Shown here: positions 5,741 to 31,298 of the stretch, one piece after another
Layout of the letters: each line of letters starts with the position of its first letter
Position numbering within the stretch: position 1 is the first letter of the stretch
Assembly: GCA_002841295.1 (NCBI GenBank)
Contig: PHEU01000026.1
Coordinates: 1-49,778 of the forward strand
DNA length: 49,778 bases
Direction: 5' to 3'
From: Actinobacteria bacterium HGW-Actinobacteria-6
GTDB lineage: Bacteria; Actinomycetota; Coriobacteriia; Anaerosomatales; Anaerosomataceae
Program-made: the position numbers and the translations under genes
Notes under the pieces: generated by a model
Told to the model about the DNA's origin: nothing
The model's input: only the letters and a program-made list of their open reading frames with translations
The model's database searches: none

Positions 5741-6184
5741 GTGGCCGAGTGCGCCTTCCATCCCGGAGTCGAGACGAACGTCCGGTGCGCCGAATGCGAG
5801 CGTCCGATCTGTCCCAAGGACATGGTGTCGACACCTGTCGGCTACAAGTGCCGTGAATGTGCGAGGCCGGCGAAGAGCGCTCTGCACTTCGTGAAGCCGC
5901 GTCAGTGGGCGCTCGGCGTTGTCGCGGGGTTGAGTGCGGGCGTAGGCGGCGGAATCTTGTTGGGCTGGGTGTTGCGTTTCGGTTCCTGGTTCGCGTACAT
6001 CGGCCTCGGCATCCTAGTTGGAGAGGCCGTCAGGCGAGGCACGGGCGGCCATCGAACCCCTGGTGTGACTGCGCTTGCTGCCGCATGTGCGGCATTCGGT
6101 GCGTTTGTTGGCGGGTTGGAAATCGTCGGCATGGCGATGGCTTCTGTGGCAGCTGCGTTCTATCTGTCATACAGTCGCCGGTAG
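5741..6184 (+). CDS. Small membrane protein with N-terminal B-box-like zinc finger
   Basis: 147 residues from a GTG preceded by AAAGGAG. The first 45 residues hold a treble-clef/B-box-like set of ligands: C-A-F-H-P, C-A-E-C-E-R-P-I-C-P-K-D-M and Y-K-C-R-E-C, a pattern often seen at the N terminus of bacterial rhomboid-type and other small membrane proteins. Three to four hydrophobic helices rich in Gly and Ala follow (about residues 55-143). No catalytic residues of a rhomboid are present. The finger should be cytoplasmic; the function is unknown. Confidence 0.75.
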   Translation: MAECAFHPGVETNVRCAECERPICPKDMVSTPVGYKCRECARPAKSALHFVKPRQWALGVVAGLSAGVGGGILLGWVLRFGSWFAYIGLGILVGEAVRRGTGGHRTPGVTALAAACAAFGAFVGGLEIVGMAMASVAAAFYLSYSRR

Positions 6185-6186
6185 AA

Positions 6187-6212
6187 GTGCCATTACCTGG
6201 CACACGTTTTGC
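6187..6212 (+). terminator. Short stem-loop after zinc-finger membrane gene
   Basis: GTGCCA (6187-6192) pairs with TGGCAC (6198-6203), followed by ACGTTTTG. Weak but correctly placed after the stop. Confidence 0.4.
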
Positions 6213-6252
6213 GTATCTCTCATCAGTTCGCTCGAGGGAAAGCAGCGCACCT

Positions 6253-6666
6253 GTGAAGTTCGGCAAAGGCATATTCGGCGTGTATGCGCCGGTCATGCTC
6301 GCGGCGGTCATGATCATGACCGTGGCGCCGACGTGCCTTATGCCCTCATGCGGCGACCTTGGTGGCAACGCGGCCACCGCGTGCGCCCAGCCTCAGTCGC
6401 AGTTCAAGTCGGCGTGCGAGCTTGACTCGGCACCCTCCTCGACGCAGGCCCCGTGCCACGGCGGCGAGTGCGATGACAGCGCCATGTCCCATGGTGCTCC
6501 CGACGCGGTCGTGGTGCAGACCGCCGAACTTCCCTCGCCGATCGCAGTAGCGGTCTCTCAGGCACCGGCTGTCTCTGCGGTTGCGTTGTGCGGCTATATT
6601 GATGCGATCAAGCAGCTTCCCGACACTCATCCGCCCGATCCTCTCGGGGTCCGGCTCTCGGTATAA
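6253..6666 (+). CDS. Small secreted or membrane-tethered Cys/His-rich protein, unknown
   Basis: 137 residues from GTG 6253. A hydrophobic N-terminal stretch (F-G-V-Y-A-P-V-M-L-A-A-V-M-I-M-T-V) is followed by a Cys-rich exported part: P-T-C-L-M-P-S-C-G-D, A-T-A-C, S-A-C-E-L, then P-C-H-G-G-E-C-D-D-S-A-M-S-H-G, a plausible soft-metal site of Cys, His and Met. The ribosome site is weak (GAGGGAAA about 13 bases upstream). It lies directly before the copper genes but is separated from them by a terminator. I know no family for it; role in periplasm-side metal binding is inference. Confidence 0.55.
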   Translation: MKFGKGIFGVYAPVMLAAVMIMTVAPTCLMPSCGDLGGNAATACAQPQSQFKSACELDSAPSSTQAPCHGGECDDSAMSHGAPDAVVVQTAELPSPIAVAVSQAPAVSAVALCGYIDAIKQLPDTHPPDPLGVRLSV

Positions 6667-8547: not shown

Positions 8548-8570
8548 GGGTACGTATACCCTATGGGGTA
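8548..8570 (+). promoter_or_regulatory. CsoR-like operator upstream of copA
   Basis: Three alternating pentamers, GGGTA (8548-8552), TACCC (8557-8561) and GGGTA (8566-8570), each separated by four bases. TACCC-N4-GGGTA is the usual form of the copper repressor CsoR site before copZA genes. No csoR gene is in the window. Confidence 0.65.
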
Positions 8571-8595
8571 CGGACCGCTGAAGAGGAGAGTCCAA

Positions 8596-11505
8596 GTGAG
8601 TAGCACCAGTAAGAACCAGACGTTCCGCGTGGCCGTCGAGGGCATGCATTGCCACTCGTGCGAGCGCACGCTTATAGGTGAGTTGTCCGGCGTCGCCGGG
8701 GTTCAGGCCGTCTCGGCCGACGCCGTGGCAGGGACAGCGACGATTCTCGCTGATCCTGAGGTGATTGATGCGGGCGCAGTTGCCGGCGCGATCATGGCCG
8801 CCGGATTCGTGGCGACCGACGGCGGGGCGCTAGCGCCCACAACCGATGAGGTGCAGCTGCCTGAACCTGCACCCGTGGCCGAGGAGACCGCGTGTGAGAC
8901 CGGCGCGTGTCCGGTGATTCCGGATGGACCAGACCCGGAGCCCGTGGCGGTTCCGGCAGGAGCCGATGTCACGAAATCCACCTTCGCAGTCACGGGCATG
9001 ACATGCGCGTCGTGCTCCGCGATCATCGAGAAGGTCGTCGGCCGCTCGCCGGGAGTTGTCTCGGCGAATGTGAACCTCGCGATGGAGCGACTCGACGTGC
9101 AGTTCGATCCGAACTCGACGACGCTGGCGGCTATCCGCAGCGCCGTCGAAGGCGCGGGCTACGGCGCGACCGAGCTTGTCGCCCCTAAGGCGGAGGTCAG
9201 CGGCAAGCTGACGTTCGCGGTGACGGGCATGACGTGCGCATCGTGCGTGATGGTCGTTGAGAAGACGCTGGCCAAGCTCGCCGGTGTCACGAGCGTCGTC
9301 GTCAATCTCGCTCTTGAGACGGCCACGGTCGAAGTTGACCCCACGATGATCGGGCCGGACGAGGTCATCTCGGCGATTGAAGGCGCTGGCTACCACGCCA
9401 TCCTGAAGGTTGAGACACCGGCCGGACAGGCGCCCGCCGAGGACCTGCAGCGCGCCGCGCAGCGCAAGCACGAGCGTCACGAGCAGCGACTGTTCGCGAT
9501 GTCGCTCGCCCTGTCGCTGCCGCTGCTGGCGCTCATGATCCCATCGGTGATGGAGAAGGTGCCGATGGTCGTGGCGACATGGCTCGCCGATACGTTCGGC
9601 GGCGCCTGGGACCCGATGATGGTGTTCAAGTACATCGGCCTCGTGCTGTCCACGCCGGTTCAATTCATAGCCGGCGCTCAGTTCTACCGTGGCTTCTATC
9701 ACGCGATCAAGCGGCGCTCCGGCAACATGGACACCCTGATTGCGATCGGCACGAGCTCAGCGTACTTCTACTCGCTGGCTGCGACATTCATCCCGTCGCT
9801 TTCCGCAGAGCCGGTCTTCTACGAGACCGCAGCGCTCCTGATCACCTTCGTGATTCTCGGCAAGCTGCTTGAGGCGCGTGCGAAGGGCAAGACCAGCGAT
9901 GCGATCAAGAAGCTCATGGGTCTTGCGGCCAAGACCGCCCGCGTCGTTCGCGGCGGCGAAGAGGTTGACGTCCCGATCGAGCAGGTCGTTGTGGGCGACG
10001 TCGTTGTCGTCCGGCCTGGCGAGAAGGTTCCGGTCGACGGTGTACTCATCGACGGTCACTCGGCTGTGGATGAATCCATGCTCACCGGCGAATCTATTCC
10101 GGTTGAGAAGAGTGTTGGCGACACCGTCATCGGCGCGACGATGAACAAGCTTGGCTCGTTCAAGTTCCGGGCTACCAAGGTCGGGGCTGACACCGCGCTC
10201 GCGCAGATCGTGAAGCTGGTGGAGGACGCGCAGGGTTCCAAGGCGCCCGTTCAGCGATTCGCTGACCGCATCAGCGCCGTGTTCGTTCCGGCTGTTGTGG
10301 GTGCGGCCATCCTGACGTTCCTGGTGTGGCTGTTCGTGGTTCCCAACTTCGTTGACGCTTCCTTCTATGCAGTCGCGTCCCCGTTCGTGAAGGCGCTTCT
10401 CGCTGGCACGGCCGTAGTCGTGGTCGCGTGCCCGTGCGCTCTCGGTCTGGCTACGCCTACCGCCATCATGGTGGGTACCGGCAAGGGCGCCGAGAATGGC
10501 ATCCTGATCAAGAACGGCGAGGCACTCGAGACCACGTACAAGATCAAAGCGGTCGTGTTCGACAAGACCGGAACGCTTACGCACGGCAAGCCAGTCGTGA
10601 CAGAAGTCGAATTGGCCGATGGTCACGATACGGCGCGCGTCTTCAAGCTCGCCGCCGCGCTCGAGCGCAATTCCGAGCACCCGCTTGCCGAGGCGATCGT
10701 CTCGCACGCGAAAGCGACGGGCGTTGAGCTGCCGGAGGTCGAGGGCTTCTCGGCCATCCCGGGTCACGGCGTCGAAGGCAACGTCATGGGTATGCGAGTC
10801 GCGTTTGGCAACCGCAAGCTTATGGCGCGTGACGGTATCGACATCTCAAGGTTCGAGGATCGCATCGCCGCACTTGAGAGCGAAGGCAAGACGGTCATGC
10901 TCGTAGGTGTCGGCGGCAACAAGCTCGCCGGCATGATCGCGGTGGCCGACACGCTCAAGGAGAACTCCAAGGAAGCGGTGGAGCGTCTCACGGCGATGGG
11001 CGTTGAGGTCTTCATGATCACCGGAGACAACCGTCGCACTGCCGAGGCCATCGCCTCGCAGGCCGGTATCGCGCCTGATCACGTGCTTGCGGAGGTGCTT
11101 CCCGAGCATAAGGCTGAGGAAGTCGCCAAGCTTCAGGCCCGCGGTCTGAGCGTCGCCATGGTTGGCGACGGCATCAACGACACCCCTGCTCTTGCACAGG
11201 CTGATGTTGGCATCGCAATGGGTGCCGGCACCGACGTAGCGATGGAGACCGGCGGCATCGTGCTTATCAAGAACGACCTGCGCGACGTTGTCACCGCCAT
11301 CGAGCTGTCGCGCGCAACCATGCGCAAAATCCGCCAGAACTTCTTCTGGGCGCTCGGCTACAACACGCTGGGTATCCCGGTTGCGGCTCTCGGCTTGCTC
11401 CGACCGGAGCTTGCCGGGGCAGCCATGGCGCTCTCAAGCGTCAGCGTCGTCACAAGCTCACTGATGCTCAAGCGCTTCAAGCCGAGCATGTCGAAGGCTG
11501 CGTAA
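8596..11505 (+). CDS. copA: Copper-exporting P1B-type ATPase with three HMA domains
   Basis: 969 residues from GTG 8596, chosen because GAGGAGAG lies five bases upstream; the earlier ATG at 8563 lies inside the operator. Three N-terminal metal-binding domains carry G-M-H-C-H-S-C (Cys 19/22), G-M-T-C-A-S-C (from Cys 137) and G-M-T-C-A-S-C (from Cys 214). Between the first two is a Cys-containing linker (C-E-T-G-A-C-P). Membrane helices follow, with the actuator loop T-G-E-S (497-500), the transport motif C-P-C (612-614), the phosphorylation site D-K-T-G-T (Asp 656), the S-E-H-P-L nucleotide motif and G-D-G-I-N-D (857-862). CPC predicts Cu(I) export from the cytoplasm. The extra HMA domain makes it longer than the usual one- or two-domain enzymes. 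Confidence 0.95.
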
Positions 11506-12459: not shown

Positions 12460-12611
12460 CGGGCAGTGCCGGCGCCATCCCGGGCTTCCGTTCTGTCTTG
12501 CGCGCTTATGGCAATCGGACACCGTCGCAGGTATGCTTGGGAGGACTTGTCATGTGTTAAGGCTCTTCACGGGGGAGCGCCGGCGCACGCAGCATGCGAA
12601 AGGGGGTCGCG

Positions 12612-15221
12612 ATGCGCGTTTCGATGCACCGGCGACTACTACCGATGGTCGTGGTCTTAGCTCTACTCGCTTCGTTTGTGCCGGTCTTCCCGGCGATCGC
12701 TATTCCTGCCGAGCCCAAGACCATCTACGTCGACGCTGTGAATGGCGACGACGTGGGCGGCGACGGCACGGCCGGCAGCCCGTACATGAGCATCACGATG
12801 GGTCTCGGCGACGCCAACTATGGCGACACGGTCGATATAGCCCCTGGCACGTACAGCGTGTCCGAGACGGGCGAGACATTCCCGCTTCCGATCTCGCCCT
12901 CCAAGATCACACTCCAGGGCAGCGATCCGTACGAGTGTGTCATCGATGCGGAGTGGAACGACACCATCATCTGGATGATGGATGGTTCCGAGTTCGGCAT
13001 CTCCGGCCTTACGCTCGCTCACGGCTTCGCTGAAGCGGGCGGTGCTGTCATGGTCGGTCTGGCTACGCTGACGATGACCGATTGCATCCTTACGCAGAAC
13101 TTCGCACAAACCGGCGGAGCCATCTACGCCACAGATTCCACCGTCATGCTCACCGACTGCGAGTTCACCGAGAACGGAGAGACGGCGTTTGCCATGGTTC
13201 CCGCCGGGGTGACCCCGCAGGGCGTTACCGGGTCCTACTCATGCGGTGCCATCATGGCATTGGGCTCCACGTTTGAGATCGACGGCTGCACCTTCGGTGA
13301 CAACAGCGCGGGCGTACTTGCCGGCGCGATTGGTGCGGAGGCGTCTGAACTCAACATCTCGGACTCCTCGTTCTATGAGAACGCACTCGCCGAAACCATG
13401 AATCCTCAATCTGCATTCGACTTCTCGGGTCCGGGCCTTGCCCCCACTGAGGCATTCCTTCCGAACTTCGGCGGCGCGGTCCTCGCCATCGCTAGTGGCG
13501 TATCTGTGACTGACAGCGCCTTCTGGGAGAATTCCGCCTTCATCGGTAGCAGTCTGATGGGTCTGGACGCGTCGATGACGGTCGAAGGCAGCTGGTTTGA
13601 AGGCGATACGACTATGGCGGGTGTCGTCGCGAGCATTGGGGATCTGTTCTCAAGCGCGTCGACGGACGCGCTGGGCGAGCTTGCGCCGACAGTTGAGATG
13701 CTCGCAACCTCGCTCACCGTCGAAGGCTCTACGTTCGACGGCAACGAAGGTGCACCAATTGCCGTAGAGGCGGTGCCTGCGCGGATCAGCAACTGCCTCA
13801 TCACCAATAACCAGGGGAGCGGAGGCGAAGGCCCAGACCGGGGCGTGCTTCTGTTCTTCGATTCGGATGCCGACCTCATCAACACGACGCTTGCCGATAA
13901 CACGACGAGCGGGTACTCGATCTACTCGGAGGCGTTGGGTGTCCAGGGAGCGCCTGCGGGTGGCCTCCGAGTGACCAACTCCATCGTCTGGGACGAGTTG
14001 GCGGCGATGGGCCCGGTCTCCGGCGCTGACGTCTCGTACTCGGATCTCTACTCCGCCGACCCGATCATCGCGGAAGCGTATGGCGAGGATGTCATCTCCG
14101 AGGACCCGATGTTCAGGGATCCTGAATCCGGCGACTACTCGCTGGCGGCAGGCTCGCCGTGCATCGACACGGGCGTCGACTTCGGCCTCGCCCCCGATGC
14201 TGACATCGACGGCACGCCCCGTCCGCTCGACGGTGACGCAAGCGGTACCGCCGAATGGGACATGGGCGCCTACGAGTTCGGCGGCGTCACTGACGGACGA
14301 CTTGCCGGTGCCAATCGGTATGAAACGGCCGTTGCTATCTCGCAGGACCACTTCGCAAGCGCGAAAACCGCCATTCTCGCGACCGGTCGCGTCTTCGCGG
14401 ATGGGCTCTCCGCCGCAGGTCTTGCCGGGGCATACGACGCGCCGATCCTGCTCACTCAGCCGAAGATGCTCCCCGGGGCAGTAGCAGCTGAGCTCGTTCG
14501 TCTGGGAGTCAGCCACGTCGTCATATGTGGCGACGAGCAAGCGATCTCTGATTCGGTCGCAAAGGCGGTTGCCGCTCTTGGCGATATCGAGGTCGAGCGT
14601 ATCGGCGGCAGCGATCGCTATGAGACCTCCGCCATGATCGCCGACGAGATCGTCGCGGTGAGAGGCGACGACCCTGGACTTGTCTTCATCGCGCGGGGTG
14701 ACACCTTCCCGGATGCCCTCGCGGTCTCGCCGATCGCGTGGGCGCAGAGCGCTCCGATCCTTCTGGTTCGGCCGCAGCATCTGCCGCGCTACACGGTCGA
14801 TTTCTTGTACGGACTCGCCGACGCCACGAAGACGATCATCGTGGGCAGCGAGGCCGCTGTCTCACTCAGCGTTCAGGGCGAGCTGTCTGTGACGAAGTCG
14901 GGTCCCGATCGAATCGGTGGTACCGACCGCTACGATACGGCCGCTTTGGTCGCGACGTGGGCCGATGACGAAGGCCTTGCCGGCTTCGGTGTCACGGGTG
15001 TGGCGACTGGCGAGCGGTTCGCCGACGCATTGTGCGCAGGCCCGGGCCTCGGCATGTCGGGTGGCGTACTGCTCCTGACGCCGCGTCTCACCGCCGCCGC
15101 GCCCACGCTTGAGACTATCAGCGAGCACGCGCCAGGCATCTCGGCGCTGCAGGTCTTCGGAAGCGGCGCCGCAATCGCCGATTCCGTGGATGCACAGCTG
15201 AGGGCCGCGCGTTTCAAGTAG
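12612..15221 (+). CDS. Beta-helix surface protein with three CWB2 cell-wall-binding repeats
   Basis: 869 residues. ATG 12612 is preceded by AAAGGGGG; an in-frame ATG at 12594 overlaps that site. Signal peptide about 1-30 (ends A-I-A-I-P-A). From I-Y-V-D-A-V-N-G-D-D the protein shows the start seen in right-handed parallel beta-helix proteins (DUF1565/choice-of-anchor-Q type), with repeated short segments such as D-S-x-F-x-E-N, L-T-D-C and N-T-T-L-A-D-N to about residue 550. The last third (about 560-869) is three cell-wall-binding repeat 2 units, each starting with a form of G-A-N-R-Y-E-T-A or G-S-D-R-Y-E-T / G-T-D-R-Y-D-T-A. These anchor proteins to the cell wall or its polymers. Substrate unknown. 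Confidence 0.88.
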   Translation: MRVSMHRRLLPMVVVLALLASFVPVFPAIAIPAEPKTIYVDAVNGDDVGGDGTAGSPYMSITMGLGDANYGDTVDIAPGTYSVSETGETFPLPISPSKITLQGSDPYECVIDAEWNDTIIWMMDGSEFGISGLTLAHGFAEAGGAVMVGLATLTMTDCILTQNFAQTGGAIYATDSTVMLTDCEFTENGETAFAMVPAGVTPQGVTGSYSCGAIMALGSTFEIDGCTFGDNSAGVLAGAIGAEASELNISDSSFYENALAETMNPQSAFDFSGPGLAPTEAFLPNFGGAVLAIASGVSVTDSAFWENSAFIGSSLMGLDASMTVEGSWFEGDTTMAGVVASIGDLFSSASTDALGELAPTVEMLATSLTVEGSTFDGNEGAPIAVEAVPARISNCLITNNQGSGGEGPDRGVLLFFDSDADLINTTLADNTTSGYSIYSEALGVQGAPAGGLRVTNSIVWDELAAMGPVSGADVSYSDLYSADPIIAEAYGEDVISEDPMFRDPESGDYSLAAGSPCIDTGVDFGLAPDADIDGTPRPLDGDASGTAEWDMGAYEFGGVTDGRLAGANRYETAVAISQDHFASAKTAILATGRVFADGLSAAGLAGAYDAPILLTQPKMLPGAVAAELVRLGVSHVVICGDEQAISDSVAKAVAALGDIEVERIGGSDRYETSAMIADEIVAVRGDDPGLVFIARGDTFPDALAVSPIAWAQSAPILLVRPQHLPRYTVDFLYGLADATKTIIVGSEAAVSLSVQGELSVTKSGPDRIGGTDRYDTAALVATWADDEGLAGFGVTGVATGERFADALCAGPGLGMSGGVLLLTPRLTAAAPTLETISEHAPGISALQVFGSGAAIADSVDAQLRAARFK

Positions 15222-15344: not shown

Positions 15345-15367
15345 CTATTGAACCCGAGGAGATGCAG

Positions 15368-15691
15368 GTGAACGCCACGCAGTCTTGCACTCTAACCGCC
15401 GAGCAAGTCAACGCGGCTTTCAAGGCGCTCGCCTCCGAGCAGCGCCGCGAGATCCTTCGGATGCTGGCGACATGTCCAAGCGAGCCGGGCGCGCCGTGCT
15501 CAGCGACAGGCGAGGTATGCGCGTGCAAGATCACGGAGCGGCTGAATCTGGCAGCATCGACGGTCTCTCACCACATGGGTGTGTTGCGGGCAGCCGGGCT
15601 GGTCTCGGCACGCAAGGAGGGAACCTGGGTGCACTACGCGCTTCAGCGCGACGTCATGGAACAGGTAGCTTCCGAGCTGCTCGGCTTCTAG
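15368..15691 (+). CDS. arsR: ArsR/SmtB-family metalloregulator
   Basis: 107 residues from GTG 15368, six bases after GAGGAG; the ATG at 15362 abuts that site. A winged helix-turn-helix is visible: F-K-A-L-A-S-E-Q-R-R-E-I-L-R-M-L, then L-N-L-A-A-S-T-V-S-H-H-M-G-V-L as recognition helix and the wing A-R-K-E-G-T-W-V-H-Y. Candidate sensor thiols are Cys in A-T-C-P, A-P-C-S and V-C-A-C-K, the last being the E-V/L-C-x-C position used by ArsR-type sensors in helix alpha3. It should bind the operator at 15329-15344 and release it with As(III) or a similar thiophilic metalloid. First gene of the operon that ends with ACR3. Confidence 0.88.
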   Translation: MNATQSCTLTAEQVNAAFKALASEQRREILRMLATCPSEPGAPCSATGEVCACKITERLNLAASTVSHHMGVLRAAGLVSARKEGTWVHYALQRDVMEQVASELLGF

Positions 15692-15724: not shown

Positions 15725-15961
15725 ATGGTCATCAAGATCCTGGGTTCGGGCTGCAAGAGCTGCAACACGCTGGAGGAGCGGACTCGTGAGGCGGTCGCGT
15801 CTCTCGGCATCGACGTCACGATCGAGCATGTGACTGACATCGCGCAAATCATGGCTTACGGCGTCATGTCGACGCCGGCACTTGTGGTCGATGAGCAGCT
15901 CAAGCTGTCCGGTCGCGTCGCGTCTGTCGACGAAATCACCGCGATGCTGTCGCGGGCGTAG
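15725..15961 (+). CDS. Small thioredoxin-fold protein (redox-active disulfide protein 2 type)
   Basis: 78 residues, one domain of the mini-thioredoxin/glutaredoxin-like family commonly found beside ArsP-type permeases. Active site G-C-K-S-C (Cys 10 and 13), then helix, and a cis-Pro loop M-S-T-P-A-L-V-V-D near residue 53. It is expected to be cytoplasmic (no signal) and to exchange thiols with a partner membrane protein in the same operon. GAGGACAACC lies upstream. 33 bases after arsR and 8 before the permease gene. Confidence 0.85.
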   Translation: MVIKILGSGCKSCNTLEERTREAVASLGIDVTIEHVTDIAQIMAYGVMSTPALVVDEQLKLSGRVASVDEITAMLSRA

Positions 15962-15968
15962 GCGCATC

Positions 15969-16937
15969 ATGGATCCGTTCTACCCACTGCAACTGCTCTC
16001 CGACTGGCTGACCTTCGACCTCATCGGGCTCGCCCGCACGAGTAAGGCCGGGCTGTCGGTCAACTTCTTCTTGTACGACGTCCCGAAGGTGCTCATCTTG
16101 CTCGCGGTGGTCATCTTCTTCGTGGCGATCATCCGGTCGTTCTTCCCGCCCGAGAGAACACGTAAGCTCCTGTCCAATTCCAAGCTGTACGCGGGCAACG
16201 TTGCTGCGGCGCTTCTCGGCATCGTCACGCCGTTCTGCTCCTGCTCGGCGGTGCCGCTGTTCATCGGCTTCGTGGAAAGCGGCGTGCCTCTGGGCGTGAC
16301 GTTCTCGTTTCTCGTGGCGAGCCCGATGATCAACGAGGTCGCGATCATCCTGCTCTTCGGCCTCTTCGGCTGGAAGATCGCCGCGCTCTACGTGGCCTCG
16401 GGGCTCTTCATCGCGATCACGAGCGGCATCATCATCGGCAAGCTCGGGCTTGAGAGCTGGGTCGAGGAGTACGTGTACAAGATCCGCATGGGCGATGCCG
16501 GTGAGATGCCCGAGCAGACGTGGGCCGAGAAGCTCCGTTACGCGCGCGGCTACGTGGCCGAGATCGTCGGCAAGGTGTGGCCGTACGTGGTCGTCGGCAT
16601 CGGAATCGGTGCCGTCATGCACGGCTACATTCCGGATGACTTCCTCGTGCAGTACGCAGGTCCCGGCAATCCCTTCGCCGTGCCGCTTGCGGTCCTCATC
16701 GGCGTACCGCTCTACAGCAACGCCGCCGGCGTCATCCCGCTCGTGAGCGTGCTCACCGAGAAAGGGATGGCGATGGGCACGGTGCTCGCCTTCATGATGG
16801 CCGTGGTTGGCCTGTCACTTCCCGAGGCGATCATCCTGCGCAAGGTACTCAAGCCAAAGCTCATCGCTGTGTACTTCGGCATCAACGCCGCCGGCATCGT
16901 GGCGATCGGCTACCTGTTCAACGTGGTACTGCACTAG
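15969..16937 (+). CDS. ArsP-type permease (DUF318/PF03773)
   Basis: 322 residues, eight to ten helices. The diagnostic block G-I-V-T-P-F-C-S-C-S-A-V-P-L-F-I-G-F with A-S-P-M-I-N-E-V-A in the next helix, and the second-half repeat G-V-P-L-Y-S-N-A-A-G-V-I-P-L, match the permease family that includes ArsP, an exporter of trivalent organoarsenicals. Several family members outside ars operons have other or unknown substrates. The FCSC cysteines may bind metalloid. Start ATG 15969, 8 bases after the mini-thioredoxin stop; the next gene starts at the base after its stop. Confidence 0.88.
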   Translation: MDPFYPLQLLSDWLTFDLIGLARTSKAGLSVNFFLYDVPKVLILLAVVIFFVAIIRSFFPPERTRKLLSNSKLYAGNVAAALLGIVTPFCSCSAVPLFIGFVESGVPLGVTFSFLVASPMINEVAIILLFGLFGWKIAALYVASGLFIAITSGIIIGKLGLESWVEEYVYKIRMGDAGEMPEQTWAEKLRYARGYVAEIVGKVWPYVVVGIGIGAVMHGYIPDDFLVQYAGPGNPFAVPLAVLIGVPLYSNAAGVIPLVSVLTEKGMAMGTVLAFMMAVVGLSLPEAIILRKVLKPKLIAVYFGINAAGIVAIGYLFNVVLH

Positions 16938-17426
16938 ATGGAGTCGCCAGTGATTGATCCCCAAAGCTCGACGCCCGCTGCGGGCCGGACGCGCACCCTG
17001 ATCGTGGTGGCGATACTGGTTGTTTTCGCTGTCATCCTCGGCGTGAAGCTCGCCACGACGTCGGAGATACAGACCGGCGTCGCATCGAGGCCCTCGATGG
17101 TGCAGGACGACGCGGTGGTTACGTATGACGCAGCGCTGGCAACCGGCAAGCCGGTCTACGTTCTCTTCCACTCGCTCACGTGCGACCCGTGCGTGCAGAT
17201 ATCGGCGGTGGCGGACGAGGTCGTTCCCGAGTATGCGGACACCGTAATCTTCGTCAACGCGATCACCGATAGCCCGTCTGGCCAGAAGCTCGCGGCCAGG
17301 TTCTCGTTTGAGTACATTCCGACCTCGTTCTTTGTGCTCCCGGACGGGACTGTGTCCGACTCATTCACAGGCGTCCTCTCCGCCGAGGAGATGCGTGTTC
17401 GGCTCGATGGGTTGGGCGCTAAGTGA
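16938..17426 (+). CDS. Membrane-anchored thioredoxin-like protein
   Basis: 162 residues. One N-terminal helix (about 19-40) anchors an external thioredoxin-fold domain. Active site S-L-T-C-D-P-C-V-Q (Cys about 80 and 83), cis-Pro in Y-I-P-T-S-F-F-V-L-P-D-G-T. The CDPC centre and the position directly before CcdA suggest it receives electrons from CcdA outside the membrane. Starts one base after the permease stop and its own stop overlaps the ccdA start (GTGA). Partner inside the envelope unknown. Confidence 0.85.
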   Translation: MESPVIDPQSSTPAAGRTRTLIVVAILVVFAVILGVKLATTSEIQTGVASRPSMVQDDAVVTYDAALATGKPVYVLFHSLTCDPCVQISAVADEVVPEYADTVIFVNAITDSPSGQKLAARFSFEYIPTSFFVLPDGTVSDSFTGVLSAEEMRVRLDGLGAK

Positions 17427-18127
17427 TCTCGATTGAGACACTGGCCGCGCCGTTGGGGTCGGGCAGCATCGTCGGTGTGGCCGCCTTTGGTGTTGCATTC
17501 CTCGGCGGCGTGGTTGCCGGCTTCGGGCCATGCATCCTGCCGATGCTGCCGGCTGTCTTCGGCTACGTCACCGGCACGGTAGAAGGAGGCGAGGGCGTCT
17601 CCTGGCGTCGGTCGCTCGCTCTCTCGGCTGTCTTCGTGCTCGGTATGAGTCTGGTGTTCGCGGTAATCGGCGCGATTGCCGGCGCGCTTGGCCGAGCGGT
17701 GCTCATTGGTTCCTGGGCCTCATACGGCGTCGCGCTGGTCTGCTTGGTTCTCGGTCTCAGCATGCTTGGCCTCGTCGATCTGCGATTTGATGCGCTCAAC
17801 CGATTCTTGCCGACCGGACGCCCGAAGCGTCGGGGAGCGGTGGGTGCGTTCATCTTCGGAATGCTCTTCGGCCTTGTCGCGTCTCCGTGCTCTACACCGA
17901 TCCTCGCAGCGATTGCCACAATCGCGGCGGCACGCGGATCGGCTGTGCAAGGCGCGGCGTTGCTGTTCGTGTACGGCCTCGGCAAGGGTGTTCCGCTTCT
18001 GGCACTGGGGCTGGCTTCGGGTTCTTTGACGAAGATGCGGTCGCTGTCACGTGCGACGGGCGTGCTCACACGGGTGGGCGGCGTCGCTCTGCTCGGCGCG
18101 GCGGCGTATCTTGTTTGGACGGCATAA
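17423..18127 (+). CDS. CcdA/DsbD-type transmembrane thiol transporter
   Basis: 234 residues, six helices. The two redox cysteines lie in G-F-G-P-C-I-L-P-M-L-P and V-A-S-P-C-S-T-P-I-L, the paired P-C motifs of the CcdA family, which carries electrons from cytoplasmic thioredoxin to outward-facing thiol proteins. The GTG start overlaps the previous stop. In this operon it would feed the CDPC protein and possibly the thiol centres of the permease. A ribosome site for the following selenoprotein candidate lies just beyond its stop. Confidence 0.9.
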   Translation: MISIETLAAPLGSGSIVGVAAFGVAFLGGVVAGFGPCILPMLPAVFGYVTGTVEGGEGVSWRRSLALSAVFVLGMSLVFAVIGAIAGALGRAVLIGSWASYGVALVCLVLGLSMLGLVDLRFDALNRFLPTGRPKRRGAVGAFIFGMLFGLVASPCSTPILAAIATIAAARGSAVQGAALLFVYGLGKGVPLLALGLASGSLTKMRSLSRATGVLTRVGGVALLGAAAYLVWTA

Positions 18128-18145
18128 GGGAAGCAAGGAGACAAC

Positions 18146-18493
18146 ATGGATGAGATAGTCGTCTACGTAGTGGACGAGCCCTGCGGTTGAGGCAGTGGCG
18201 GCTGCGGTGATGACATCGCGATGATTCTCGGCACGACGGCCGAGGGAACATCATGCGAGGTCGTCCTGCAGGATCCTCTTCAGGTTCTGGAGAGCGAACT
18301 GATGTCCGCGAACGAGCGGCCGATAACCATCATCTCGACCGACGTCTATGGCGTGCAGGGAGACGCGCGTCACGCGGCGCTCGACGCTCTCATAGAAGGC
18401 GCGACACTACCGTACGTGATCGTCGACGGTACGCTTGTGTGCACCGGCGGCATCGACATACCGGCCGCTGTAGAGCGAGTGCGGAGCCTCTAG
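18146..18493 (+). CDS. Probable selenoprotein: thioredoxin-fold protein with in-frame UGA (C-G-U-G-S-G-G-C)
   Basis: ATG 18146 has AAGGAG six bases upstream. Reading on gives 14 codons, then TGA at 18188-18190, then an open frame to 18493: 115 residues if TGA is selenocysteine. The site reads E-P-C-G-U-G-S-G-G-C-G-D-D (Cys13, Sec15, Cys20). Predicted strand/helix order and an end segment L-P-Y-V-I-V-D-G-T-L-V-C-T-G-G fit a thioredoxin fold, broadly like the ArsD metallochaperone, which has a similar N-terminal Cys cluster. The only start after the TGA, ATG 18221, has no ribosome site and would lose the active site. A hairpin follows the TGA (separate entry). It sits between ccdA and acr3. Alternatives are a sequencing error or nonsense mutation; sel genes are not in the window. 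Confidence 0.7.
18188..18219 (+). promoter_or_regulatory. Candidate bacterial SECIS element
   Basis: After the UGA (18188-18190) and a 13-base gap, GCGGTG (18204-18209) pairs with CATCGC (18214-18219), six pairs including one G-U, with loop ATGA. The apical loop begins 22 bases from the U of UGA, inside the 16-37 base range described for bacterial SECIS. A G closes the loop. Judged by eye; no folding run. Confidence 0.5.
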
Positions 18494-18551
18494 TCGAACG
18501 TGGCCAGATGTGCGACCTTGAATTGAAGTGACGAGATAAAGGAGCCCCGTG

Positions 18552-19619
18552 ATGACTGAGTCCACCCAACCCGCTGAGAAGAAGCGTATGGGCGTCTTCG
18601 AGCGGTACCTCTCGCTCTGGGTAGCACTCTGCATCGTGGTAGGCACGCTCGTTGGCAACTCGTGGCCCGGCGTGGCGACGTGGCTATCGAAGTTCACGTA
18701 CGCGCAGATATCGATCCCGGTCGCCGTGCTCATCTGGCTCATGATCTACCCGATGATGCTGCAGATCGACTTCAAGTCGATAAAGCGGGTCGGGGAGCGC
18801 AAGCAGGGGCTCGTCGTTACGACTGTCACCAACTGGCTCATCAAGCCGTTCACCATGTACGCGATCGCATGGTTCTTCTTCAACGTCGTGTTCAGGACCT
18901 GGATACCGGTCGAGCTTGGACGTGAGTATCTGGCGGGAGCGGTGCTTCTCGGCGCCGCACCGTGTACGGCGATGGTGTTCGTGTGGTCGTATCTGGCTGA
19001 TGGCGACCCGGCGTACACGCTCGTGCAGGTCGCGGTCAACGATCTCATCCTGCTTGTTGCCTTCGCGCCGATTGTGATGCTTCTGCTCGGCCTGAGCGAC
19101 ATCGTCGTGCCGTACGACACGGTGTTCCTCTCAGTGGTGCTGTTCGTGGTCGTACCACTGGTTGCAGGCTGGATCTCCCGCGTGCAGCTCATCAAGCGCA
19201 AGGGTATCGAGTGGTTCGAGCACACGTTCCTGCCCGCACTCGCGCCGGTGACGATCACGGCCCTGCTCGCAACGCTCGTCATTATCTTCATCTTCCAGGG
19301 ACAGACGATCGTCGCGAACCCCCTTCACATCTTGCTGATCGCCGTGCCGCTCATCATCCAGACGTACCTCATCTTCGCGATTTCGTACGGCTGGGCGTGC
19401 ACATGGCGGTTGCCGCATGCGGTGGCGGCACCGGCGGGCTTCATCGGCGCGTCGAACTTCTTCGAGCTTGCGGTGGCAGTTGCGATCGCGCTCTTCGGGC
19501 TGACCTCGGGAGCGACGCTGGCGACAGTGGTCGGCGTGTTGACCGAGGTGCCCGTCATGCTCTCGCTCGTGTGGATCGCGAAGAAGACCCGACCCTGGGC
19601 CGAGCAGCGCGCTCTCTAG
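18552..19619 (+). CDS. acr3: ACR3-family arsenite efflux transporter
   Basis: 355 residues with about ten helices. ATG 18552 is seven bases after AAAGGAG; a GTG directly before it is possible. The sequence G-A-A-P-C-T-A-M-V-F-V-W-S in helix 4 contains the essential ACR3 cysteine, and N-D-L-I-L and A-P-A-G-F-I-G-A-S-N-F-F-E-L-A-V-A-V-A are family signatures. The protein exports As(III) using the proton motive force. It ends the operon that begins with arsR. Its stop overlaps the stop of the converging spermidine-synthase-like gene. Confidence 0.95.
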   Translation: MTESTQPAEKKRMGVFERYLSLWVALCIVVGTLVGNSWPGVATWLSKFTYAQISIPVAVLIWLMIYPMMLQIDFKSIKRVGERKQGLVVTTVTNWLIKPFTMYAIAWFFFNVVFRTWIPVELGREYLAGAVLLGAAPCTAMVFVWSYLADGDPAYTLVQVAVNDLILLVAFAPIVMLLLGLSDIVVPYDTVFLSVVLFVVVPLVAGWISRVQLIKRKGIEWFEHTFLPALAPVTITALLATLVIIFIFQGQTIVANPLHILLIAVPLIIQTYLIFAISYGWACTWRLPHAVAAPAGFIGASNFFELAVAVAIALFGLTSGATLATVVGVLTEVPVMLSLVWIAKKTRPWAEQRAL

Positions 19620-21263: not shown

Positions 21264-22871
21264 ATGGACGGCATCGAGGTTCGGTTCGAACCGGCGGGGA
21301 AGGTCGTCCGCATCGCTCGCGGTATCACCGCCCATGCGGCCTCCATAGCCGCCGGAGTCGCGATAGATGCGCCATGTGGAGGACTCGGTCGCTGCGGCCG
21401 CTGCATCGTCCAGGTGCAAGGCGAGGTCTCACCGCCCACCGTCGACGAGGTCGAGCTGCTCGATGCGGCTGAGATGGCCCGCGGCGTACGTCTCGGCTGT
21501 AGAGTCCGTCTTCTCGGCGATGCCGTGATCTCTGTCGTGGCCCCCGGTTCGATTCGCGTTGTGGATCAGGGCGTCTCTGCCGAGATAGAAGTGGAGCACC
21601 CCTCCGATCGTGGCATCGACCCTAGTGACGACAGCCCGTATCTTCTCGGCGCGGTCGTCGATATCGGGACGACGACACTTGCGGCTGCGCTGGTCAACCT
21701 CGACAACGGCGACGAGCTCATCCGCTCGGGCGCGTTGAATGTGCAGTACCCATGGGGCGCCGATGTCATGACGCGCGTGACGATGGCGGTGCACGAGGGC
21801 GTGGACGTTCTCCATGACCCGCTCATCACGCAAGTCGAGCGCATGTTGCTTGCGATGCTTGAGCCGATCGGCGCAAGCGCTGCCGATATCCGCGAGATCG
21901 CGGTCGTTGGCAACACCGCGATGACGGGGTCGTTTCTCGGCGTGGATCTCTCGCCGCTCGCCGCCGCTCCCTATGAGGGCGTGCAGCTTGAGTCGGCGTA
22001 CGTCTCCGCGGAGCGCCTCGGTATGGAGCGTCTCGATCAAGCCAGCTGCTACGTTCTTCCGGCCATCTCGGCGTTCGTCGGAGCTGACATCGTTGCGGGG
22101 CTCCTTGCAACGGCGCCAGACCCGGCTGACGGCCCCGTGCTACTGCTCGACCTCGGCACCAATGGTGAGCTTGCGCTCGTGACCGCCGACGGAGTGCTTG
22201 CCGCCTCGGCAGCCGCTGGTCCCGCGCTTGAAGGTGCGGGCATCGAGTCCGGCATGCGCGCCGAGCCGGGTGCCGTTGAGCGTGCATGGCTCGAGGACGA
22301 CGACCTCGTCATCGCGACCATCGGCGGCTTTCAGCCTGTGGGCATCTGTGGGAGCGGCGCGCTTGATCTGATGGCAGTCATGCTCGATTCCGGCGTGCTG
22401 GACACAAGCGGTCGCGTGCGCGATGACGTACACGGCGCAATCGGGTGGCGTGTCTTCGAGCGCGAAAAAGTGCGCGCTTTTGTAGTGGATCCCGATGCCG
22501 GCATCGTCATCACCCAGAAAGACGTCCGCCAGTTGCAGCTCGCAAAAGGCGCTGTCCGCACCGCAATCGACTCGCTGCTAGCCGAGGCCGGCCTCACGCC
22601 AGACGACGTCACTCGGGTGCTCGTGGCCGGCGGTTTCGGCCTCCATGCTGACGGGCGCACGCTCGCGCGTCTCGGCATGATACCTGCCGAGTGGAGCGAT
22701 CGCCTCGAGTTCGTCGGCAACACGGCCAAGGAAGGCGCGCGCCTTGCGCTTGTGAGCAGCTCGACTCGACGACGTGCCGAGGAACTCGCCAGCACCGTGC
22801 GAACACTGTCGCTCGCGTCACATCCGGACTTTCAGCGTCGCTATATCGCGTCACTCGATTTTCCCGAGTAG
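21264..22871 (+). CDS. ASKHA ATPase with N-terminal [2Fe-2S] ferredoxin domain (RACo-like corrinoid activator)
   Basis: 535 residues; GGGAGGA upstream of the ATG. A plant-type [2Fe-2S] domain comes first, with Cys 38, 44, 47 and 79 (C-G-G-L-G-R-C-G-R-C then L-G-C-R-V). The ASKHA ATPase follows: D-I-G-T-T-T-L (phosphate 1), V-G-N-T-A-M, D-L-G-T-N-G-E-L, G-P-A-L-E-G-A-G-I, G-S-G-A-L-D and V-A-G-G-F-G. This is the architecture of DUF4445/RACo proteins, which use ATP to reduce Co(II) corrinoids back to Co(I) in anaerobic methyltransferase systems. It is shorter than RACo of about 630 residues. No corrinoid protein or methyltransferase is adjacent, so the target is unknown. Confidence 0.85.
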   Translation: MDGIEVRFEPAGKVVRIARGITAHAASIAAGVAIDAPCGGLGRCGRCIVQVQGEVSPPTVDEVELLDAAEMARGVRLGCRVRLLGDAVISVVAPGSIRVVDQGVSAEIEVEHPSDRGIDPSDDSPYLLGAVVDIGTTTLAAALVNLDNGDELIRSGALNVQYPWGADVMTRVTMAVHEGVDVLHDPLITQVERMLLAMLEPIGASAADIREIAVVGNTAMTGSFLGVDLSPLAAAPYEGVQLESAYVSAERLGMERLDQASCYVLPAISAFVGADIVAGLLATAPDPADGPVLLLDLGTNGELALVTADGVLAASAAAGPALEGAGIESGMRAEPGAVERAWLEDDDLVIATIGGFQPVGICGSGALDLMAVMLDSGVLDTSGRVRDDVHGAIGWRVFEREKVRAFVVDPDAGIVITQKDVRQLQLAKGAVRTAIDSLLAEAGLTPDDVTRVLVAGGFGLHADGRTLARLGMIPAEWSDRLEFVGNTAKEGARLALVSSSTRRRAEELASTVRTLSLASHPDFQRRYIASLDFPE

Positions 22872-29071: not shown

Positions 29072-29171
29072 ATTACAGTTTAGATACCGCTCATCCCCGC
29101 CGATGAACCGTTTAACGTCCCCGGCAAGGACGAAGAACAGTCTGAAGGCTCAGGGGTGAGGGGTGTTGGCG

Positions 29172-31298
29172 ATGAAGATGCACAAGAGGACTCTCTCGGC
29201 AGCGTTGGTGGTGGCGCTGGTCGCAGCGCTCGGGTTGGGATCCGTTTCGGCGTTCGCGCTAGAGGCGCCGGTCTTTGGTGAATCCAGCATGATGCAGGAT
29301 CCGGCCGCTCCGCGCGACGTAGCCGTTGCTGACTTCAACGAAGACGGCTACGACGATGTCGTCAGCGCTGTGCCCGGTTCCGATGCGAATCCAGCGGGCG
29401 TGGCGCTCTCAATGGGCAGCACGAACCCGGTTCTCTCCGCTCCCACGATGATCGACATGGGCGGAGCGACATGGAGTGTTGTCGCCGCAGACTTGAACGC
29501 TGACGGCCACGCGGATGTTGCAGCTTCCCTGGCTGACGGCGCGGGTATCGCTGTTATGTTCGGCAACGGGAACGGCACATTCACCGATCCGGCTACCTAC
29601 ATGACCAGCAACATGGTGCGCGGCCTTCTCGTCGCGGACATGAACGCCGACGGATCGCTCGATATCGTTGGCACAGAGCCGGATATTCAGGTTGTCGTTG
29701 TCCTGACCGGTGCGAATGGTGGATTCTCTGTAGCTGAGTACGACATCGCTGGCGCCGGCAACATCCTTGAGTTGGCAGCCGGGCAGCTTGCCGGCGACGA
29801 GTTTGTCGACCTTGCACTGGTCGACAGCTTCGGGGCGCGCGTCATCATCGCCGAGAACACCGGCTCCGGATTCACGCAGGTCGCAACGCTCGCCACCGGC
29901 GAGCAGCCTCGCGCCGTTGCCGTCGCGGACTTCAACAATGACAGCCACGATGACGTCGTCGCCTCCAGCAGCCTCGCGTCGGACGTCGAGGTCTTCCTCG
30001 GCGACGGTGTTGGCGGATTCGCAGATCCCATGATCGCTTCGGCGGGCGAAGACTCGCGCACCGGTGCGATTGCACCGATCGATCTTGATGGTGACGGTGA
30101 TATGGACCTGCTCGCAGTCAACGCCACAACAGGCGTGCTTGTTGCCTTCGAGAATGATGGAAGCGGTGCCCTCACGGCGATAGAGAGCTTGTCGGTCGCG
30201 TCTGGTCCGACGGCCATTGAACTTGGAAACCCGAATGGCGACGAGATTCTTGACATCGTGATCGCGGACTACGGCGATGGATGCGTTCGCGTGATTCCGT
30301 CTCCGCAGACCGTCATCATCAGCGCATACGAGCTCCCCGTGCCTGTCCCCAACACGCTCGACACGCTTGAGGTCGCCGGTGCGAACCGGTATGAGACTGC
30401 GGTAGAGGCCTCCAAGCTCGCGTTCGAGAGCGGTAGCGACCATGTGATCATAGCCAGTGGCGAGAACTGGCCAGACGCGGTCACAGCCTCGGCGCTCGCG
30501 GGCCGGCTTGGTGCACCGCTGCTACTAACCCGCAATGCGGATTTGCCGCAGGTTGTTGCAGACGAGGTACGGCGTCTCGGTGCCGCTGACGCGGTCGTGA
30601 TCGGCAGCGAAGCCGCGGTATCAGAGGCAGTCGTGCAGACACTCAAGCTGCTCGTCGGCACGGGAAACGTGAGCCGTCTGGCCGGGATCAACCGGTACGA
30701 GACCGCCGACGCGGTCGCCCGTGAGGTCATCGCGCTCGCTGGCGACGCCTACGATGGACGCGCGTTCGTGGCTACGGGTCGTGTCTTCGCCGATGCGCTT
30801 GCCGCATCGCCGCTCGCCAATGTAACAGGCGCCCCGGTCTTCCTGACCCCGCCTGAAGGTCGTGCGGGCTTGCTGGACGAGATGCTCAGTGGCGGCGTCA
30901 CCGACCTCGTCATCCTCGGCGGTCTCCCGTCGGTGGGTGCGAATGTTGAAGCTCAGATGGTCGCGGCGTTCAGCGCCGAGCGTGTGACTCGCTTTGCCGG
31001 TGCCACGAGGTACGAGACCGCCGCGCTGGTTGCCGCATACGGTGTCAGCCACGACGGACTCAGCTGGGACGGCGTGGGCATCGCGACCGGTACGAACTTC
31101 CCGGATGCGCTCGCCGGAGGAACCATGCTTGGCTTCCGTGGCTCGGTCATGCTCCTGACCACTCCTGAGAGCCTTGCCGTTCCGGTCACCCGTGCGCTGA
31201 GCGAGCACGCGGCCGAGATCAACACGATCGTATTCCTTGGTAGCACGCAGGCCGTCAGTAGCGCGACTCGCGACGCTGCAATCAGTGCCCTAAGGTAA
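29172..31298 (+). CDS. VCBS/FG-GAP beta-propeller surface protein with three CWB2 repeats
   Basis: 708 residues from ATG 29172, with a GGGG-rich site upstream; GTG 29163 is a possible earlier start. Signal peptide about 1-33. Residues about 40-385 contain seven FG-GAP-like units with calcium-loop motifs such as V-A-D-F-N-E-D-G-Y-D-D-V, A-A-D-L-N-A-D-G-H-A-D-V, A-D-M-N-A-D-G-S-L-D-I and I-D-L-D-G-D-G-D-M-D-L, predicting a seven-bladed beta-propeller. The last part (about 398-708) is three cell-wall-binding 2 repeats with A-N-R-Y-E-T-A, I-N-R-Y-E-T-A and A-T-R-Y-E-T-A. Exported, wall-attached; its ligand is unknown. It splits the pur cluster. Confidence 0.88.
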   Translation: MKMHKRTLSAALVVALVAALGLGSVSAFALEAPVFGESSMMQDPAAPRDVAVADFNEDGYDDVVSAVPGSDANPAGVALSMGSTNPVLSAPTMIDMGGATWSVVAADLNADGHADVAASLADGAGIAVMFGNGNGTFTDPATYMTSNMVRGLLVADMNADGSLDIVGTEPDIQVVVVLTGANGGFSVAEYDIAGAGNILELAAGQLAGDEFVDLALVDSFGARVIIAENTGSGFTQVATLATGEQPRAVAVADFNNDSHDDVVASSSLASDVEVFLGDGVGGFADPMIASAGEDSRTGAIAPIDLDGDGDMDLLAVNATTGVLVAFENDGSGALTAIESLSVASGPTAIELGNPNGDEILDIVIADYGDGCVRVIPSPQTVIISAYELPVPVPNTLDTLEVAGANRYETAVEASKLAFESGSDHVIIASGENWPDAVTASALAGRLGAPLLLTRNADLPQVVADEVRRLGAADAVVIGSEAAVSEAVVQTLKLLVGTGNVSRLAGINRYETADAVAREVIALAGDAYDGRAFVATGRVFADALAASPLANVTGAPVFLTPPEGRAGLLDEMLSGGVTDLVILGGLPSVGANVEAQMVAAFSAERVTRFAGATRYETAALVAAYGVSHDGLSWDGVGIATGTNFPDALAGGTMLGFRGSVMLLTTPESLAVPVTRALSEHAAEINTIVFLGSTQAVSSATRDAAISALR

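Follow-up and report, generated by a model that had tools for sequence, protein, structure and literature searches.

A probable new family of thioredoxin-fold selenoproteins encoded among arsenic efflux genes

The locus described here raises the question of whether a TGA triplet near the beginning of a small gene, situated among arsenic efflux genes, is a stop or a codon for selenocysteine (Sec), and, if the latter, what kind of protein is made and what part it might play. The gene lies in a stretch of 49,778 nucleotides from Actinobacteria bacterium HGW-Actinobacteria-6 (contig PHEU01000026.1), hereafter the window, in which the gene, its parts and the genes of its cluster given below are on the forward strand. 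Positions 18146–18493 comprise a reading frame of 115 residues plus stop, which begins at ATG 18146, ends at TAG 18491–18493 and has codon 15 (TGA, 18188–18190) as its sole stop before the TAG. The frame is open if this TGA represents Sec, and its N-terminus then reads MDEIVVYVVDEPCGU15GSGGCGDD, with the motif C-G-U-G-S-G-G-C. A ribosome-binding site (AAGGAG, 18135–18140) is positioned 5 nt upstream of the ATG and is retained in three orthologues from the same genus; the downstream in-frame alternative start is ATG 18221. An original prediction made from the sequence alone had proposed a selenoprotein here on the strength of these features, and its start codon, codon-15 TGA, frame open to 18493, ribosome site and motif all held.

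Homologues of the predicted protein supply the principal evidence. Matches were obtained in 31 of 298 genomes of the class, one of which (G027) is weak, partial and without the Sec region, while an alignment search of 69 genomes of the order matched 30, though in one (G105) the match is a mere fragment where a contig ends. The first Sec position, site 1, was readable in 31 sequences from 29 genomes, all belonging to the same order, and these are the basis of the count that follows: the codon aligned with codon 15 is TGA in 31/31, a conservation that chance comes nowhere near explaining. The original prediction had held that Cys or TGA at this position in homologues would support Sec, and it is therefore supported. 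Identity to the window protein is 76–78% among same-genus orthologues and about 28–43% among other members; Cys13 (18182–18184), the first residue of the C-G-U motif, is present in nearly all members, Cys99 (18440–18442) is conserved in most, and Cys20 (18203–18205), a possible third ligand, occurs in many but not all. Searches of 298 genomes of the class, 396 genomes of the phylum and 69 of the order turned up no form with Cys at site 1, and since the queries had Cys substituted for Sec such forms would have been detected. A search of plasmids returned no match. One match in Clostridia (L002) was judged not to be a homologue and set aside, being a single open frame without the motif, of 28% identity and resembling low-complexity sequence.

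Many members are longer, with DUF2703 as the N-terminal half (E 4.4e-23 in the one member scanned, with similar results by tblastn in others) and the Sec domain as the C-terminal half, such that the TGA falls inside a long frame, after DUF2703. Within the genus of the window, dN/dS is 0.02 for codons 2–14, 0.18 for codons 16–25 and 0.14 for codons 46–115. Codons before and after the TGA are thus under purifying selection, among them those that precede ATG 18221, and we conclude that one protein has been selected across the TGA. Homologues starting at residue 26 would have refuted the original prediction; none appeared, and residues 1–14 are strongly conserved. That prediction had seen a smaller family, to which the DUF2703 fusions and a second site, Sec in some members and Cys in others, are now added.

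Several members depart from the general pattern. The genus of the window also contains a broken extra copy (L128, G057:C137:46393-46554) that keeps both TGA sites and lacks the middle of the domain. A third subgroup, consisting of L050 and L075 (both G095) and L058 (G087), has the motif C-S-U-S-G with Cys at the second site and is mostly found outside clear ars clusters; a clean hairpin with a GGUCU loop follows the TGA in two of the three, and a longer hairpin in the third. Seven members (L025, L026, L028, L029, L036, L037 and L038) carry vicinal or closely spaced cysteines at the C-terminus (e.g. KGCCGSGCC), immediately before a TGA stop, which resemble the tails of ArsD.

A UGA codon can be read as Sec only where the decoding apparatus exists, and the original prediction had called for a search for selA, selB, selD and tRNA-Sec. 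All four were found in the genome of the window, on contig C63, where selA and selB are adjacent, selD itself has an in-frame TGA (KSGUAAK) and the tRNA-Sec has anticodon UCA; this too supports Sec. Among the 28 other genomes bearing the family, selA was found in 23 and a clear tRNA-Sec in 23. Four assemblies with UGA-containing members, G047, G051, G145 and G073 (L062, L060, L063 and L052 respectively), yielded no selA, no tRNA-Sec and no selB over the cut-off; the selB tally is not a clean test of presence, since scoring was limited to four candidates in each genome and relatives of EF-Tu match as well. G047, G051 and G145 retain selD with an in-frame TGA (SKAGUAAK in G047), and within the few kilobases inspected around that gene there is neither selA nor selB. 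Gaps in assembly or binning are the likely cause of these absences in all four genomes, which is unproved, and loss of Sec decoding remains possible. A global reassignment of UGA was considered and rejected, because 11 of the 37 large open reading frames in the window end in TGA, and UGA is therefore a normal stop elsewhere. On this comparative evidence, and without mass spectrometry or 75Se labelling, we consider it very likely that UGA codon 15 is decoded as Sec by the organism's own selA, selB, selD and tRNA-Sec, and that the gene product is a true selenoprotein.

Selenoproteins are classically recognised by an aligned position at which relatives exchange Sec for Cys, and a second site in the family, corresponding to Cys37 of the window protein (TGC, 18254–18256), behaves in this way. 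Across the 31 sequences site 2 is TGA in 21, Cys in 8 (the window included), Trp (TGG) in one and absent from one. The tree implies about three changes between Sec and Cys, of which the well-supported branches alone force only one. In the window, Cys37 is followed by a SECIS-like hairpin, CTCTTCA[GGTTC]TGGAGAG (18276–18294), whose spacing of 26 nt equals that in several relatives with TGA at this site. The simplest reading, and a likely one, is that the Cys37 codon was formerly UGA and that this hairpin is its probable relic, with the caveat that the hairpin encodes a conserved LQVLE peptide and that constraint on the protein may contribute. The single Trp belongs to a divergent member (L066, G101:C308, at about 6000–6290) in which a SECIS-like hairpin is still found downstream; its TGG could represent loss of Sec by a single base change.

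The SECIS evidence at site 1 is weaker. The original prediction had proposed the hairpin at 18204–18219 as the SECIS, and GCGGTG-ATGA-CATCGC does form six base pairs, including one G.U pair, at −6.3 kcal/mol. Its energy is no better than that of synonymous-codon shuffles (p=0.73), and the stem is not kept in the three same-genus orthologues; the hairpin exists, and as a SECIS it remains a weak, unconserved candidate and the weakest part of the original observation. Across the family, the sequences that follow the TGAs could not be told from synonymous-codon shuffles by folding energy (Fisher p 0.33 for site 1 and 0.05 for the site-2 TGAs). A motif defined as a hairpin of ≥7 bp with a GGU loop, 16–37 nt after the codon, was present after 14 of the 31 site-1 TGAs. 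In 300 shuffles the mean was 1.3 and no shuffle exceeded 5, and among random positions 1.8% had the motif. The motif was defined after the folds had been inspected and its null figures are consequently optimistic. Stems vary by subgroup around a constant loop, as in CGACCCC[GGTTC]GGAGGTCG, CTCGGGC[GGTCC]GCTCGAG and CTCGGAC[GGTCT]GTCCGAG. This canonical GGU-loop form was not seen at site 1 in the window gene or its close relatives, and the missing clear site-1 SECIS is the main gap in the case for Sec in the window gene itself.

The genes around the selenoprotein gene bear on its function. It is the sixth of a run that begins with an ArsR-family repressor (15362–15691; PF01022, E 1.9e-10) and continues with a small thioredoxin of the Thioredoxin_3 type (15725–15961; PF13192, E 2.8e-27), an ArsP-type permease (15969–16937; PF03773, E 3.6e-76), a thioredoxin with an N-terminal hydrophobic segment, read from its sequence, that is probably membrane-anchored (16938–17426; PF00085, E 1.8e-7), and a CcdA/DsbD-type membrane electron carrier (17423–18127; PF02683, E 6.8e-33). 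The selenoprotein gene is followed by a transporter (18549–19619; PF01758 (SBF), E 3.8e-39), the identity of which as an ACR3-type arsenite efflux protein is inferred from its position in the cluster. Homologues of ArsR, ArsP or ACR3 occur near 22 of 29 loci, read to about 6 kb, in several families of the order, and many of these 22 also have Thioredoxin_3, a second thioredoxin and CcdA. A 23rd locus (L058) has a more distant SBF-family transporter, and for some members no ars cluster is recognisable, the neighbours being, for instance, an MFS or a TauE gene. DUF2703, the fusion partner, is present in an arsenate-induced ars cluster of an actinobacterium (PMC6514093) and has been found fused with ArsD (PMC3091736).

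Elsewhere in the window, a heavy-metal P-type ATPase with three HMA domains is encoded at 8563–11505, about 4 kb upstream of the ars cluster. Two large proteins, at 12594–15221 and 29163–31298, each carry three CWB2 cell-wall-binding repeats, together with a beta-helix in one and FG-GAP repeats in the other, and a RACo-type protein (reductive activator of corrinoid proteins) is encoded at 21264–22871.

What kind of protein the gene specifies was addressed with AlphaFold models of the window protein (mean pLDDT 70) and of a relative with two Sec residues (mean pLDDT 81, with a core near 95). Both have the beta-alpha-beta-alpha-beta-beta-alpha order of thioredoxin, with a proline (Pro89, 18410–18412) predicted to sit just before strand 3; this residue is invariant in 29 sequences and occupies the position of the thioredoxin cis-proline, the cis bond being inferred from position. 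The loop bearing the Cys and Sec residues runs between strand 1 and helix 1 and is modelled with low confidence in both cases. The closest solved structures to both models were 1xg8 (YuzD/DUF1462) and then three ArsD entries, ahead of ordinary thioredoxins, with modest Z-scores of 5.6–7.8 (7.8 and 6.7 for 1xg8; 5.6–6.8 for ArsD). Sequence searches of solved structures found no match, and no Pfam or NCBIfam model reaches its cut-off for the family. Against Pfam ArsD (PF06953) the window protein scores 10.7 bits (E 0.67), below the gathering cut-off of 27 bits, and hhalign with the ArsD profile aligned only 29 C-terminal columns. PF07315 (DUF1462) matches two members at a permissive threshold (best E 0.012) and does not match the window protein; PF13192 (Thioredoxin_3) does not match the selenoprotein, only its neighbour at 15725–15961. 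The genome of the window has no ArsD match of its own, and in G073 a family member shares its contig with a true arsD (L076, G073:C36), which is situated about 5 kb away and precedes the beginning of an ArsA-like frame. Given the sub-cut-off Pfam score, the 29-column alignment and the presence of both genes in G073, we describe the family as ArsD-like without filing it as ArsD. The product is likely to be a small protein with a thioredoxin fold, similar to ArsD and YuzD, insofar as predicted models allow.

The part of our interpretation supported by data is that a Sec-containing thioredoxin-fold protein travels with arsenic efflux genes, which we regard as likely. That the family employs its selenium on arsenic in one way or another, as a ligand or in chemistry, is probable. 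The explanation that on balance we prefer, by a narrow margin and in the absence of binding or transport data, goes further and makes this protein a partner of the arsenic pumps that would bind As(III) or serve them in a redox capacity. The product would be cytosolic, and the loop that joins strand 1 to helix 1 would present Cys13-Gly-Sec15 together with Cys37, the second Sec in most relatives, and Cys20 in many. ArsD has a three-Cys arsenic site (Cys12/Cys13/Cys18), and by analogy Cys13, Sec15 and Cys/Sec37, with Cys20 and Cys99 in many members, may form a soft-ligand site of selenolate and thiolate for As(III). The protein would then buffer As(III) or an organoarsenical, or pass it to the pumps ACR3 and ArsP, whose genes lie alongside, and the flanking thioredoxins may keep the Sec and Cys residues reduced. 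In favour of such a role are the YuzD and three ArsD structures at the head of the matches, the 22/29 loci linked to ars genes, the fusion with DUF2703 and the vicinal-Cys tails of several members; against it are the modest Z-scores, the low confidence of the active loop and the members found outside ars clusters. The specific element of a chaperone with Sec as arsenic ligand is inferred, there being no binding or transport data for arsenic or for the pumps, and could as easily prove wrong as right. The original prediction of a thioredoxin-like or ArsD-like partner of ArsP/ACR3 is backed by the predicted fold and the neighbourhood; the partnership itself is inferred. A bolder reading, in which one or two Sec residues serve a Sec-based chaperone as As(III) ligands for delivery to efflux pumps and the site-1 Sec is never Cys in the genomes searched, leaves us more doubtful than convinced.

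The chief rival to the arsenic-handing role is a Sec-dependent oxidoreductase, in which Cys13-Gly-Sec15 would be a redox pair, supplied with electrons by the thioredoxins and CcdA encoded nearby, that reduces an arsenical or a thiol adduct. The thioredoxin fold with its invariant proline at the cis-Pro position, the presence of ccdA and two thioredoxin genes in the run, and the supposed redox role of most selenoproteins, whether characterised or predicted (PMC13188914), all speak for it. However, the motif is CxU and not the usual CxxU or UxxC, and a single loop that holds Sec at sites 22 residues apart, with the vicinal-Cys tails of several members, suggests ligands more than one redox pair. 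We judge this account rather less likely than not, without dismissing it. A role in handling some other soft metal, or in general thiol stress, with only a loose tie to arsenic, would accommodate the members beside MFS or TauE genes that lack a recognisable ars cluster, but it is unlikely given ArsR, ArsP or ACR3 homologues within 6 kb at 22/29 loci in several families of the order.

A more radical objection is that the UGA is a true stop and the gene a pseudogene, a product of sequencing error or a frame restarted at ATG 18221. The lack of a canonical site-1 SECIS in the window gene and the four genomes without selA, selB or tRNA-Sec in their assemblies can be cited in its support. It is nonetheless very unlikely, because the TGA is common to 31/31 sequences, dN/dS is 0.02 before it (codons 2–14) and 0.18 immediately after (codons 16–25), and the fused forms place it within a long frame after DUF2703.

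Returning to the reading of the gene as a selenoprotein, we found no corresponding entry in a 2026 review of 119 prokaryotic selenoprotein families and subfamilies (PMC13188914) and no NCBIfam match above cut-off; the open-licence literature that we searched contains no arsenic selenoprotein of this type, and a description elsewhere is possible. No described selenoprotein family of this kind beside acr3 was known to the original prediction either. Within the same limits, this is likely to be a new selenoprotein family of at least 31 sequences on a familiar fold. One predictor, deep-Sep, requires of each candidate that Cys homologues exist or that a Sec homologue is already known (PMC12013277), hence a Sec protein without a Cys form is easily missed, and this may explain the absence of the family from such lists; ordinary annotation, too, would tend to truncate or split these genes at the UGA. 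Few bacterial selenoproteins are suspected of using Sec as a metal ligand, most being thought to be redox proteins (PMC13188914). Site 1 is never Cys in the genomes searched and natural members have either Sec or Cys at site 2, which makes it directly testable in this family what selenium contributes to the handling of arsenic.

Among the known systems nearest to the family, ArsD (PF06953; PDB 3mwh, 3kgk, 3ktb) shares the thioredoxin-like fold as far as the predicted models and their modest Z-scores go, a Cys-rich loop directly after strand 1, the ars-cluster setting, the vicinal-Cys tail seen in several family members and a reported fusion with DUF2703, but ArsD sequences read CCSTGVC, a Cys-Cys-x4-Cys site, where the selenoprotein family has C-G-U. 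YuzD/SA0789 (DUF1462, PF07315; PDB 1xg8) is the top structural match of both models and gives a weak Pfam signal in two members; unlike it, the selenoprotein family has one or two Sec residues and an ars-cluster context, and the sequence match is below significance. Selenium is already associated with proteins of arsenic metabolism in the Sec-type arsenate reductase, an arsenate reductase-like protein and an arsenite methyltransferase (PMC13188914), although these belong to other families, with the motifs UxxS, UxxC and UxxG. The thioredoxin-like selenoproteins Sec.1 and Sec.2 (PF13192) are likewise small and thioredoxin-like, and Sec.1 has the same CxU motif, but their PF13192 model does not match the selenoprotein of the window.
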